Shown: positions 50,606 to 55,228 of the stretch, in pieces
How the letters are laid out: the number at the start of each line of letters is the position of its first letter
Position numbering within the stretch: the stretch's first letter is position 1
Assembly: GCA_003211755.1 (NCBI GenBank)
Contig: QCRS01000002.1
Coordinates: 1 to 55,228, forward strand
DNA length: 55,228 nucleotides
Direction of reading: 5' to 3'
Source: Prochlorococcus sp. AG-463-F15
GTDB lineage: Bacteria > Cyanobacteriota > Cyanobacteriia > PCC-6307 > Cyanobiaceae
The notes under the pieces: model-generated
The model's database searches: none
The model's input: only the letters and a program-made list of their open reading frames with translations
What the model was told of the DNA's origin: nothing
Translations under genes and position numbers: made by a program

Positions 50606-50682
50606 TAACAAGCGGTTTAAGTGAGCTATTGAATTTTCTAATTCCTTTAAGATAGTTACTTTGACTGCACAAAAACACAAAT

Positions 50683-50755
50683 GGGGCCATAGCTCAGCTG
50701 GTAGAGCACCTGCATGGCATGCAGGGGGTCAGCGGTTCGAGTCCGCTTGGCTCCA
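50683..50755 (+). tRNA. tRNA-Ala (GGC anticodon)
   Basis: The acceptor GGGGCCA pairs with TGGCTCC, with the usual G3-U70 wobble pair that identifies tRNA-Ala. The anticodon stem CCTGC/GCAGG has loop ATGGCAT (GGC), and the T-arm has GGTTCGAGTCC. The discriminator is A and CCA is not encoded. It points toward the polysaccharide cluster, a frequent insertion-site arrangement. Confidence 0.97.
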
Positions 50756-51009
50756 TTCTTGAAAACAATTTATAAAGACTGACACGGTCTTCGCTGGCTC
50801 CAGATGTTTTTGAAATAATGAAAAGGATGATGTTTACAACTTCTAATAAGTTATAAGCAGCCAATCTTAAAGTCATCAAAGGAATGCTAGTTTATGTTTA
50901 TATATTTCTAATTACTATACAAGACTTGCTAGTATTTTTGTAGAATAAATGATCTGCGAATATGGATTAAAATTATTAAATAATTAGCAACTTAACTATT
51001 TAATTTCAT

Positions 51010-52155
51010 TTAATTTATATTATTCAATAGTTTATATAATGTGAAATAGTTTATCAAACTCTGAGCTGGCTTGTTTGCAAATCCCATCGTATCTCCGACA
51101 CTTGCAATTACATTTCTATTCACTTTTATGATATCCCCATCTGATAACTGAGGGTTATTAGCACCAGGTGAACTGTCAGTTAGATTCATTCCTATTCTAT
51201 TGTTTTTGATAGTGCCATTACTTCCTATTGTTACCAATACAGTGTTTTTACTATTTGCTCTAGTTGGCACTAACCCACCAGCAGCTAAAACGGCTTGATT
51301 TAATGTCACTCCTGAAGGTAAAGTTATAAGACCAGGCTTATAAACTTCACCAATTACTATGACACTAATAGTATTAGGAGATAGATTAGTCATAATTGAC
51401 TTATTATTTAGGGAGGAACCTTTTTCAGCAGCTTTTATATGTATTACGTCTCCATCAAATAAGTATGGGTTTTGATTTTGGTTGCCCTCAAGAATTAAAT
51501 CCAGCAAGTTTAGATTTGTTTTCTTGAATTTAATTCCTTCCAGATTCTCTGGCAGCCTTCTTCTTAGAACTATATTTGACATATCAGAATTCTTTGTTAT
51601 CCCGCCGGCTCTCTGTATCGCCGAAACAACAGTAGGTAATCCAATGTAATCGTTTAAATTATTTACGTTAGTGGCATTTCTTTTTGACATGTCAAAACTA
51701 TAAGTCCCTGGTATCTTTACCTCTCCAATCAAAGAAACGAGTACAGGCCTTGGTTTAAATAAGGATAATTGTACCTGAGGAGCGATCAGTTCTTTTGAAA
51801 ATATTTTAGTTAATTGTTCTTTTGCTTGATCTAAAGTTAAGCCATTAACATCAACACCTTCATTGAATGGCACGGAGATCTTCCCATCATTTAAAACAAC
51901 AAAATCACCAGAATACTCTTCAACATCCATCACAATCAAGTTTAATATATCTCCTGGCCCAATAATATAATAATCATCATTAATAGGGGGCATTTCTTTG
52001 CTATTAATTGTTGGCTCTAATTTATTATTAACTTCCTCAGAAGATATGGCTGGTGAAGAGACATTTAAAAATGTAGGGATCAATAACAGAAATAGTACCC
52101 CATTCTTCTTAAAAGATTGAAAAGGATTCAATTCCCCAGGTCTCTCTTTTTTCAT
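51010..52155 (-). CDS. Wza-like polysaccharide export protein (SLBB domains)
   Basis: The 381-residue exported protein has an N-terminal signal (VLFLLLIPTFLNVSSPA), the poly-export domain beginning YYIIGPGDILNLIV with DGKISVPF and two SLBB-type repeats (PVLVSLIGEVKIPGTYSF and ISVIVIGEVYKPGLITLPSG). No lipobox Cys is obvious. It probably forms the outer-membrane exit for surface polysaccharide. The frame opens at 52200, but the ATG at 52155 (MKKERPGEL) gives a standard signal start. It is divergent from the tyrosine kinase (101 bases between starts), so one regulatory region may serve both. Confidence 0.88.
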   Translation of the reverse strand: MKKERPGELNPFQSFKKNGVLFLLLIPTFLNVSSPAISSEEVNNKLEPTINSKEMPPINDDYYIIGPGDILNLIVMDVEEYSGDFVVLNDGKISVPFNEGVDVNGLTLDQAKEQLTKIFSKELIAPQVQLSLFKPRPVLVSLIGEVKIPGTYSFDMSKRNATNVNNLNDYIGLPTVVSAIQRAGGITKNSDMSNIVLRRRLPENLEGIKFKKTNLNLLDLILEGNQNQNPYLFDGDVIHIKAAEKGSSLNNKSIMTNLSPNTISVIVIGEVYKPGLITLPSGVTLNQAVLAAGGLVPTRANSKNTVLVTIGSNGTIKNNRIGMNLTDSSPGANNPQLSDGDIIKVNRNVIASVGDTMGFANKPAQSLINYFTLYKLLNNIN

Positions 52156-52256
52156 AAAACACTCTGGCTTTTGAAAGGCAAGAACGTATAATCCCCACAA
52201 GGATACCTTAAAGAGTTCTTATCTTTCCAAAACTTAATCGCCTTAAGGCCTCTTAG

Positions 52257-54656
52257 ATGAATAGTCAACAAGAAAACTCCAATATGAATAGGGAAGATTC
52301 AAGTAAAATCCTTCCTGAGAGCGCAGAAAGCTTTAAAGAAGATGAAATTGACTTCAAAGCTCTCTTAAGAGCTTTACTAAGAAGAAAAAAGCTTGTTCTA
52401 GTTACAGCCGCAACAATATTTACATTAAATGTTTTTTATATTGGCTATAAGCGTATTTTTCGACCAGTTTATGAAGGATCTTTCACAATACTGATTTCTG
52501 ATCCATTAACTAGTAGATCAGGCGGCCTTTCTGATGGGACCCCTGATAGAAGCTTAATATTTAAAGCATTTGCAAGTAATACTACAGATAATGATATCCC
52601 GACCCTAATAGAGCTTCTGAAAAGTCCATTAGTCTTAGACCCTATTGCTAAAGATTTCGATATTTCACCGATTGCTCTTAGTAAAAGGATTTTTGTAAGA
52701 ACAGGTGGAACAGGTACTAGGACAAGGGAAGCAAAGGGAGTTCTTAAAGTTCGGCTTAGGACTACAGATGTAGATAGAGGTAATAAGTTAATAAAGAAAT
52801 TGAGTAATTCTTATTTGCAAATTGCTATTACTCTACGCCAGAGAAAATTATCAGAAGGCCTTAATTTTCTTGAAAATCAAAAACCTGCTTTAGAGAAGAG
52901 AACAGAGGAAATACAAGTTAAATTAGCAAATTTTCGACGTGAAAATTCACTTTTAGAGCCATCACTTGAGGGAACTGCACTAAAAGAACAGGAGCTTGGG
53001 GTAAATAAAATGATATTCATGCTTGACTCTGTGGAGAAAAGGCTCTTAAAGGTCAGAGAACAAGTTAATTCAGGAACATTAAGCGCAATTGGTTTTAAAA
53101 ATGCTATAAATGCTGGCGAATCTTCAAGTAATGGTAATTTTACTTATAGAGGGGACAATGGACTAGCCTTTGTTGATTCCGATCAAAGCCTTCTTCAGCA
53201 ATTAATAGAAATTGAAGATAAGCTTGCAAATGCTCGCTCTAAATATAAAGAATCATCCTCAATGGTTCAAGGGCTGGAAGCTCGTTTAACAGAACTTAAA
53301 CCATTGCTAAAAGACAATCAACTGAAAGCAATAGATACTGCATTATTGTTAAATCAAGGCAGGATCCAGCAAGCTAAAGATCAGCAAAAAACACTCAAAG
53401 CCCTCTTCTCCAAACAACCTGAACTCATTAAAGAATATAATAAACTTAATGCAAAATTAGAAGTAGCCTTTTCAAACCTTAAGGCTTTAGTTGATGCACG
53501 TGAGCAGTTTCAATTAGAGATAGCCCAAAAGAGCGTTCCTTGGAGATTGTTGTCAGAACCTGTGATTTCTCCTGAGATAGTAAAACCTTCAATAACTATA
53601 GGAGTTCCAGTCGCATTCATTGTCGCATTAGTAGCTGGTTCAATTGCTGGGCTAGTAAGAGATAGATTTGATCATGTTTTTCATGATCCAGAAGATCTAA
53701 AAGAAGAACTTGGCCTCCCGATTTTGGGTACCATCCCTTACTTAGAGTCATTTGAAAATGTACGAGAAGAGAAGAGATTTTTACTTGATGAGTTTGATAC
53801 ATTTATGTCTAGTCCATCTAAAGGTGTTGACAGCAAAAAAGATCCTCAATACACGAGATTCCTTTTTCAAGAAGAACTCAGGAATTTATATACATCCTTG
53901 CGCTTTTTAAAGGCTGATAGTCAGTTAAGAACAGTCGTTATCACAAGTTCTATTCCAGCTGAGGGGAAATCATTAATAACTATTCTATTTGCAAAAACAC
54001 TCTCTGAGTTAGGGCAGAGAATTTTATTGATTGATGGTGATATGAGAAAGCCAACTTTGCATTATCGTTTAGGCCTGAATAATTTAAAAGGGCTGTCCAA
54101 TTTGTTAACTGAAGAAGATGTAACGTGGAAAGATGTGATAATTGACGTGCCAGATTATACAAACTGGAAAGTAATAACTGCTGGCATAACTCCTCCAGAC
54201 TCTATTCGTTTACTAACCTCACCTAAATTGACTAATATTAATAAACAATTGATTGATTCTGATGAGTTTGATTTGATCATTTATGACTCACCTCCAGCAC
54301 TTGGCTTGTCAGATGCAGAACTACTGTCTGAGCATACTGATGGCCTTATTCTTATAACTGCTCTTGGCAAAGTGGATAGGAAATTACCAGCAAAAGTTGT
54401 GAATAATGTAATTGAAAATAAAAATACAACAATCCTCGGAGTTGTAACTAATGCGATAAAAGAAAATTCTATGAAACAGGGAGCAAGCAGCAACTATTCC
54501 AATTTATATGAGTACTACACTAAAGATGAAAGAGATCAGAATGAAACTGAAGTGATCAAAATTGATTCTAAAAGCAGTATCATTGATAAATATGATTATC
54601 TTAAAACTATGCTTAAAGGTCAAATTGATAAGTTCTTCAATTGGGTAGACAACTAA
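52257..54656 (+). CDS. Wzc-like tyrosine autokinase / chain-length determinant
   Basis: The 799-residue protein has a Wzz domain with two membrane segments (about 45-63 and 443-460), long coiled coils between them, and a C-terminal BY-kinase domain. Walker A is SSIPAEGKSL with Lys571, Walker A' is LLIDGDMRKP (Asp593, Asp595) and Walker B is DLIIYDSPPALG. The C-terminal tail carries a tyrosine cluster (NYSNLYEYYTK and later KYDYL), the usual autophosphorylation site. It controls length and export of polysaccharide. It overlaps the phosphatase gene by one base (TAATG). Confidence 0.92.
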   Translation: MNSQQENSNMNREDSSKILPESAESFKEDEIDFKALLRALLRRKKLVLVTAATIFTLNVFYIGYKRIFRPVYEGSFTILISDPLTSRSGGLSDGTPDRSLIFKAFASNTTDNDIPTLIELLKSPLVLDPIAKDFDISPIALSKRIFVRTGGTGTRTREAKGVLKVRLRTTDVDRGNKLIKKLSNSYLQIAITLRQRKLSEGLNFLENQKPALEKRTEEIQVKLANFRRENSLLEPSLEGTALKEQELGVNKMIFMLDSVEKRLLKVREQVNSGTLSAIGFKNAINAGESSSNGNFTYRGDNGLAFVDSDQSLLQQLIEIEDKLANARSKYKESSSMVQGLEARLTELKPLLKDNQLKAIDTALLLNQGRIQQAKDQQKTLKALFSKQPELIKEYNKLNAKLEVAFSNLKALVDAREQFQLEIAQKSVPWRLLSEPVISPEIVKPSITIGVPVAFIVALVAGSIAGLVRDRFDHVFHDPEDLKEELGLPILGTIPYLESFENVREEKRFLLDEFDTFMSSPSKGVDSKKDPQYTRFLFQEELRNLYTSLRFLKADSQLRTVVITSSIPAEGKSLITILFAKTLSELGQRILLIDGDMRKPTLHYRLGLNNLKGLSNLLTEEDVTWKDVIIDVPDYTNWKVITAGITPPDSIRLLTSPKLTNINKQLIDSDEFDLIIYDSPPALGLSDAELLSEHTDGLILITALGKVDRKLPAKVVNNVIENKNTTILGVVTNAIKENSMKQGASSNYSNLYEYYTKDERDQNETEVIKIDSKSSIIDKYDYLKTMLKGQIDKFFNWVDN

Positions 54657-55126
54657 TGGAAAAAGGTCGTTACTTTAAACTTGACTGGGTGTTAATAGAT
54701 GAAATTGCTATTGGGAGAGCACCTAAGAAAACAAAGCATCTTCAGGTACTGAAAGAGGAAGGTATTAAATCAGTTTTTAGTCTTTGTAATGAAGAAGAAT
54801 TCAAAATGATGGATGAAGGCTTAGAGCTTTTTCATCACGCAAGATATCCACTTCCTGATCATCGCTCAGCACGGTTGCCAACACCAGAAGAAATAATAAA
54901 TGCAATTAAAATTGTAGAAGATCTGATTAAGGATGGTCCAGTTTTTATCCATTGTATTGCTGCAATGGAGAGATCTCCATTGGTTTGCTTGGCTTGGCTT
55001 GTAAATAAGAAGCAGCTTAATCCAACTGCAGCACTTGATTATTTAATGCAAGTACATCCAGGAACAAACCCTCTCCCAGGCCAATTAAATCTATTAAATC
55101 ATCCTTTGATTAAATTAGACTCCTAG
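54656..55126 (+). CDS. Dual-specificity-type protein phosphatase
   Basis: The 156-residue Cys-dependent phosphatase has the P-loop HCIAAMERS (Cys100, Arg106), which fits HCX5RS of PTP/DSP enzymes, though AA replaces the usual AG. A possible general acid Asp68 lies in YPLPDHRS. It is not the low-molecular-weight Wzb type nor the PHP CpsB type. Its ATG overlaps the kinase stop by one base, so it most likely acts on the kinase. The longer frame from TTG 54641 would overlap the kinase more. Confidence 0.88.
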   Translation: MEKGRYFKLDWVLIDEIAIGRAPKKTKHLQVLKEEGIKSVFSLCNEEEFKMMDEGLELFHHARYPLPDHRSARLPTPEEIINAIKIVEDLIKDGPVFIHCIAAMERSPLVCLAWLVNKKQLNPTAALDYLMQVHPGTNPLPGQLNLLNHPLIKLDS

Positions 55127-55127
55127 G

Positions 55128-55228
55128 ATGAACTTAAAAGAGTTTAAGGGGTTCCAAGAACTTTATCCCTTGTGGGAAAATTTAAGCTCTAAAAGGAAAA
55201 AACAATTAATTCTTTTTCAATTACTTAA
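55128..55228 (+). CDS. Probable ABC exporter, N-terminal fragment cut by window edge
   Basis: Only 33 codons are visible: MNLKEFKGFQELYPLWENLS then SKRKKQLILFQLL. This resembles the short N-terminus before the first membrane helix of MsbA/lipid-type ABC exporters. It starts one base after the phosphatase stop. Assignment rests on a short stretch and on context. Confidence 0.45.
   Translation, partial: MNLKEFKGFQELYPLWENLSSKRKKQLILFQLL

Follow-up and report, generated by a model that had tools for sequence, protein, structure and literature searches.

A candidate DSP-class phosphatase partner of Wzc-type tyrosine autokinases in relatives of Prochlorococcus, Synechococcus and Cyanobium

Control of polysaccharide export by a tyrosine autokinase and its phosphatase is best described in a few systems. 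In Wza-Wzb-Wzc of Escherichia coli and Klebsiella, a Wza-type exporter and a polysaccharide co-polymerase of class 2a (PCP-2a) that is also a tyrosine autokinase with a tyrosine tail are accompanied by an adjoining gene for a small cytosolic cysteine phosphatase, and in Streptococcus CpsB-CpsC-CpsD the kinase and the phosphatase are likewise encoded together for capsule control. The sections consulted of a 2025 review (PMC12220298) describe tail phosphorylation as driving the octamer apart and the phosphatase as resetting it, and name either a low-molecular-weight protein tyrosine phosphatase (LMW-PTP) or a polymerase and histidinol phosphatase (PHP) enzyme in that role. Here we analysed a contig of Prochlorococcus sp. 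AG-463-F15 (QCRS01000002.1), taken whole as a window of 55,228 nucleotides from a 1.08 Mb assembly that is 55% complete. Near its right end lies an export module composed of a wza gene on the minus strand, divergent from a Wzc-type kinase gene on the plus strand, which is followed on that strand by the gene of a cysteine phosphatase of the dual-specificity phosphatase (DSP) class. Judged from sequence, these genes probably form a control module for polysaccharide export, in which Wza and Wzc would work with a DSP that removes phosphates from the kinase tail.

The phosphatase (54656..55126, plus strand) has 156 residues from the ATG at 54656, an in-frame TTG at 54641 being an alternative start. 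It matches Pfam DSPc (PF00782) with 43.6 bits (cut-off 33.5), and all 33 members of an alignment of its homologues match the same profile at E ≤ 0.001. An AlphaFold (AF2) model, built from an alignment of the window phosphatase and six relatives, reached a mean predicted local distance difference test score (pLDDT) of 90.9 and a predicted template modelling score (pTM) of 0.87. The best PDB match to this model by Foldseek was Tk-PTP (5z59; E 6.7e-9, template modelling scores 0.76/0.80), and VIA-align placed human MKP-2 first (3ezz; Z 18.0, root-mean-square deviation 2.3 over 141 residues), level with many other DSPs. The predicted fold is that of a DSP, the outcome expected of the structure prediction proposed in the first-pass annotation of this DNA.

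The catalytic residues are those of the class. The P-loop HCIAAMERS (H99-C100-I-A-A-M-E-R106-S107; residues 99-107, 54950..54976, plus strand) reads HCX5RS with alanine at a position where most PTPs carry glycine, and the best PDB matches have the aspartate of PIPD aligned with D68, the candidate general acid; both the HCX5R(S/T) loop and the general-acid aspartate of DSPs are in place. Across 78 aligned homologues the catalytic Cys, the Arg and the following Ser are identical in 78/78 and D68 is kept in 76, and because the catalytic residues are conserved a pseudo-phosphatase is unlikely. The Ala-Ala for Ala-Gly substitution, to which the first-pass annotation had drawn attention, is real but is no defining hallmark: the residue at the glycine position is G in 45 homologues, A in 24 and S in 9. 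The Glu directly before the catalytic Arg is found in 78/78; eight more distant cyanobacterial homologues (L139-L145, L153) carry GVGR, with Gly in its place, so ERS(P) marks a clade and not the fold. One homologue (L076:9305-9916, genome G113) has YC for HC and N for D68 in a fetched flank that lacks kinase and Wza, and is possibly degenerate; another (L045, genome G037) has E for D68.

The enzyme differs from the phosphatases described elsewhere. The P-loop of LMW-PTPs lies near the N-terminus, here it occupies residues 99-107 of 156, and the LMW-PTP profile PF01451 gave no match to the phosphatase at E ≤ 1. Neither did CpsB_CapC (PF19567), the profile of the PHP phosphatases, at that threshold. 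The phosphatase is neither an LMW-PTP nor of the PHP type. Y_phosphatase3, the profile of IphP-type cyanobacterial DSPs, was not among its Pfam matches at E ≤ 1, no direct comparison with that type having been made. A phage origin of the DSP was considered and rejected, since none of 50,697 phage records matched it. We class the phosphatase with the DSPc members and regard the system as a putative bacterial tyrosine kinase (BY-kinase)/phosphatase control of polysaccharide export.

The named genomes to which a search with the phosphatase led belong to Synechococcus, Prochlorococcus and Cyanobium, and on these names we take the family sampled to be the relatives of these genera. Across 250 family genomes, searched for the kinase at a threshold of E ≤ 1e-20, the DSP was present in 85, a kinase match in 97 and Wza in 179. 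A kinase domain is present in 93 of these 97 genomes; in the other four the match covers the Wzz part only (G418, G472, G536) or is a fragment (G601). Kinase domain and DSP occur together in 84 of the 250, so the survey of cyanobacteria that had been suggested finds the pair far outside this genome. Of the 179 genomes with Wza, those with a kinase domain have the DSP in 84/93 cases and those without one in 1/86 (84/97 versus 1/82 on the unfiltered matches), so the DSP tracks the kinase rather than the export channel or export in general. No DSP was found in the 71 family genomes without Wza (0/71). A sample of 91 family genomes from the relatives search gave the same picture, with the DSP in 22/24 genomes with the kinase versus 0/67 without. 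Within a single genus (g1), G000 and G006 hold both genes and G001-G005 and G007 neither, several of these assemblies being incomplete. The matches in G418, G472 and G536 are Wzz-type co-polymerases; none of these genomes has the DSP.

The genes are also neighbours. In the relatives search all 23 family DSP places (the window, L033 of genome G088, and 21 in L037-L051, L069-L072, L074 and L075) have a kinase and/or Wza homologue in the fetched flanks. Of the 88 DSP places in the larger family sample, 69 have a kinase match no more than 5 kb away; the remaining 19 are either farther off on the kinase's contig (6) or on contigs without a kinase match (13). Sixteen of those 19 have Wza within 5 kb, which brings the places within 5 kb of kinase or Wza to 85/88. 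The three left over are G529, with Wza at about 7 kb, and G576 and G592, where the DSP lies at a contig end. By these counts and those of co-occurrence the association exceeds chance, and with the profile matches and the fold they bear out the initial description of a tyrosine autokinase paired with a DSP-type phosphatase.

Gene order varies. Many of the 77 loci tallied were picked after the linkage result, so the tally describes the variety of orders and not a rate: 22 read wza< kin> dsp>, 12 kin< wza> dsp>, 12 dsp> kin< wza>, 7 wza> dsp>, 5 kin< wza< dsp>, 3 wza< dsp>, 2 dsp> kin< wza< and 2 kin< dsp> wza< (arrowheads give orientation), with 3 singletons and 9 loci, all outside the family, in which the DSP stands alone. 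In the window, the stop codon of the kinase overlaps the start codon of the phosphatase by one base (TAATG, 54654..54658, plus strand), as first annotated. As a hallmark the overlap does not hold, since it occurs in 5/19 same-strand pairs, whose phosphatase starts lie from -8 to +23 relative to the kinase stop, and other orders are common. Translational coupling would be compatible with this tight same-strand spacing, but the system does not depend on coupling to the kinase gene, because in other lineages the DSP gene follows wza or is convergent to the kinase.

Genomes with two modules (G055, G414 and G539) allow the pairing to be followed between paralogues. In each of the three, the two DSPs sit on distant branches of the DSP tree, as the two kinases do in theirs, and every DSP is of the type that matches its own kinase: its nearest relatives come largely from the same loci as those of the neighbouring kinase. 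Over the 58 loci with both genes, patristic distances of DSP and kinase correlate with a Spearman coefficient of 0.55, the maximum of 500 label shuffles being 0.14; part of this correlation is common descent.

The kinase (52257..54656, plus strand; 799 residues from an ATG) matches TIGR01007, 'polysaccharide biosynthesis tyrosine autokinase', with 118.5 bits (cut-off 108.05) and Pfam Wzz with 33.0 bits (cut-off 25.5), as expected of a membrane tyrosine autokinase of the PCP-2a type. It has the Walker motifs, and GK[ST] of Walker A, the first Asp of Walker A' and the Asp of Walker B are found in 58/58 linked kinases. Its C-terminal tail holds six tyrosines, including the cluster NYSNLYEYY (within SSNYSNLYEYY, residues 744-754, 54486..54518, plus strand), and Tyr-rich tails occur in most of the linked kinases compared; the cluster is presumed to be both the autophosphorylation site and the substrate of the phosphatase. 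Beyond the cluster the kinases of this clade continue to a C-terminus that tends to read W[LIV][DE], here NWVDN (54620-54653). As a DSP docking motif this ending was rejected, as it occurs in DSP-paired kinases but also in kinases of genomes without DSP (L099, L104).

EX2RX2R, the interface motif of BY-kinases, is incomplete in this protein. It reads EELRNLY (residues 539-545, 53871-53891), with the last Arg replaced, and for that reason we call the kinase Wzc-type rather than Wzc. That Arg is present in 0/105 aligned cyanobacterial kinases, which usually have Tyr or Phe there, and its absence is a trait of the lineage and not one special to the kinase/DSP pair. That EX2RX2[Y/F] might have switched docking from the LMW-PTP to the DSP had looked attractive on the 58 linked kinases; we rejected it, as 40 unlinked kinases and 7 from family genomes without DSP likewise lack the Arg. 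The first Arg of the motif is also gone in half of the 40 unlinked kinases.

In the module that we propose, Wza would be the outer-membrane export protein, Wzc the inner-membrane co-polymerase with its tyrosine autokinase domain and Tyr-rich tail, and the DSP a small cytosolic cysteine phosphatase. Most likely, the kinase would phosphorylate its own tail, upon which the octamer would fall apart; the DSP would strip the tail phosphates by means of C100 and R106, with D68 as acid; and Wzc would then re-assemble for the next round of chain extension and export. The DSP would fill the role held elsewhere by an LMW-PTP (Wzb) or a PHP enzyme (CpsB). This scheme builds on the gene pairing, the fold, the conserved catalytic residues and a co-occurrence that follows the kinase and not Wza. 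Catalysis by the DSP and tyrosine-phosphorylated Wzc as its substrate would be in keeping with those features, and the assembly cycle would be taken over, by analogy, from the published Wzc/CpsCD model.

With less confidence than for the module itself, we lean towards the view that these enzymes make up a third, DSP-class family of dedicated cyanobacterial Wzc phosphatases, marked by HCxA[AGS]xERS(P), and that they, and not the LMW-PTP annotated as Wzb, are the physiological brake-release of export in the Prochlorococcus/Synechococcus/Cyanobium family. The 'third kind' of kinase-phosphatase control suggested by the first-pass annotation stands as a candidate on genes, fold and phylogenetic profile, the reading as a whole being partly supported. 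No DSP-class partner of Wzc or of a BY-kinase was evident from the titles and abstract openings of the papers that our searches of the open-licence PMC literature listed. Wzc-type kinases need a phosphatase to cycle, and a DSP partner that tracks the kinase family-wide would be a third solution to that need; it also gives a concrete gene for the study of polysaccharide output by abundant aquatic cyanobacteria.

The DSP might belong to the export pathway and act on a non-protein phosphate, such as a phosphorylated glycan, a sugar phosphate or a lipid carrier. Phosphoglucan phosphatases and PTPMT1 do act on such phosphates, and DSP folds include LSF2 (phmmer E 1.1e-4) and PTPMT1 (VIA-align Z 17.5 and 17.2). 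The same idea would accommodate the 7/77 loci in which the DSP follows wza in a fetched flank without kinase, as well as the three genomes (G524 in the family, G100 and G119 in another) that have the DSP and no BY-kinase over the TIGR01007 cut-off. We nevertheless hold it to be improbable: among Wza-bearing genomes the DSP goes with the kinase and not with the channel, and paralogous DSPs match paralogous kinases, as set out above.

Slightly less probable still is that Wzc is in truth dephosphorylated by the LMW-PTP (Wzb), the DSP being secondary or serving another target of the kinase, for example a glycosyltransferase. LMW-PTPs are indeed widespread, PF01451 having matches in 82/91 family genomes of the relatives sample, and in the part of PMC6562117 drawn on here the Synechocystis Wzb, an LMW-PTP, dephosphorylates Wzc in vitro. 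Their presence is, however, independent of the kinase (22/24 genomes with it and 60/67 without; p 1.0, no association), and among the matches listed no family LMW-PTP place is near a kinase. The premise that capsule kinases are usually paired with LMW-PTPs thus needs a caveat in this family, where the LMW-PTP is present whatever the kinase status. The PHP-type CpsB was found in 3/149 relatives, all of one genus outside the family. According to the portions used of the two papers, in a phylum survey Wzb is the export protein that correlates least with the others (PMC4594306), and the authors of PMC6562117 report that the phenotypes of wzb deletion and of Tyr-tail truncation disagree, an apparent contradiction for which one of the two explanations they offer is that Wzb is not involved in tail dephosphorylation. 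A DSP-class Wzc phosphatase, if confirmed, would bear on why 'Wzb' correlates weakest in that survey.

Beside the in vitro activity of Synechocystis Wzb and the three genomes with a DSP and no BY-kinase, other results weigh against the DSP as the dedicated Wzc phosphatase. The samples hold one genome per species and are not independent, so shared descent inflates the p-values and the tree correlation, and the kinase search in the 250 family genomes scored only part of the first-look candidates. Nine of the 93 family genomes with a kinase domain have no DSP (G044, G054, G474, G489, G517, G563, G609, G610 and G611); in G610 the kinase lies close to a contig end, and G044 and G054 yielded no DSP to a profile search either. 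Linkage is weaker outside the family, with 10 of 19 loci linked in the 77-locus tally. It holds for 3/9 further loci of the same class with strong profile matches (L144, L145 and L146; not L139-L143 or L153) and for 0/6 with weak matches, five of the six from outside the class.

The Wza protein, of the outer membrane polysaccharide export (OPX) type (51010..52200, minus strand), matches Pfam Poly_export (55.2 bits, cut-off 28), SLBB_2 (55.4, cut-off 27) and SLBB (48.1, cut-off 27), and a Wza homologue stands beside the DSP and/or the kinase in most relatives. An open reading frame at 55128-55228 begins two bases past the stop codon of the phosphatase and runs off the contig; it may be the following gene of the operon. 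The module comes shortly after a tRNA-Ala(GGC) at 50682-50756, where G+C drops from about 0.43 to 0.35. From the protein sequences, we take the conserved block before this tRNA to be ftsH-argF-lexA. In congeners argF and lexA are retained, with AT-rich DNA beyond and usually the same tRNA, but the contents differ; G003 has a diverged wza, and neither kinase nor DSP gene within the stretch examined beyond argF-lexA. The AT-rich, variable content after the tRNA suggests that 50682-55228 is likely to belong to a tRNA-associated genomic island, and this setting may explain the patchy distribution of the module. That the DSP merely rides on such a polysaccharide island with no functional link, as the AT-rich, tRNA-flanked setting and patchy presence might suggest, is very hard to reconcile with a neighbourhood that persists across several gene orders and in other families of cyanobacteria, and with conserved catalytic residues.

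Among the known systems, Tk-PTP and other prokaryotic small DSPs have the same fold as that predicted here, at 21% identity, and to our knowledge none is paired with a kinase. In Streptococcus CpsB-CpsC-CpsD the phosphatase is a metal-dependent PHP enzyme and the kinase is split, unlike the kinase of the window. Wzc (Sll0923) and Wzb (Slr0328) of Synechocystis PCC 6803 are likewise a cyanobacterial BY-kinase and a cysteine phosphatase that dephosphorylates it; in the part of PMC6562117 consulted, Slr0328 is an LMW-PTP encoded in a four-gene operon, slr0326-slr0329, that holds no kinase gene. From Wza-Wzb-Wzc of E. coli and Klebsiella the module differs in gene order and in its phosphatase, which has the predicted DSP fold, with the P-loop at residues 99-107, instead of that of an LMW-PTP.

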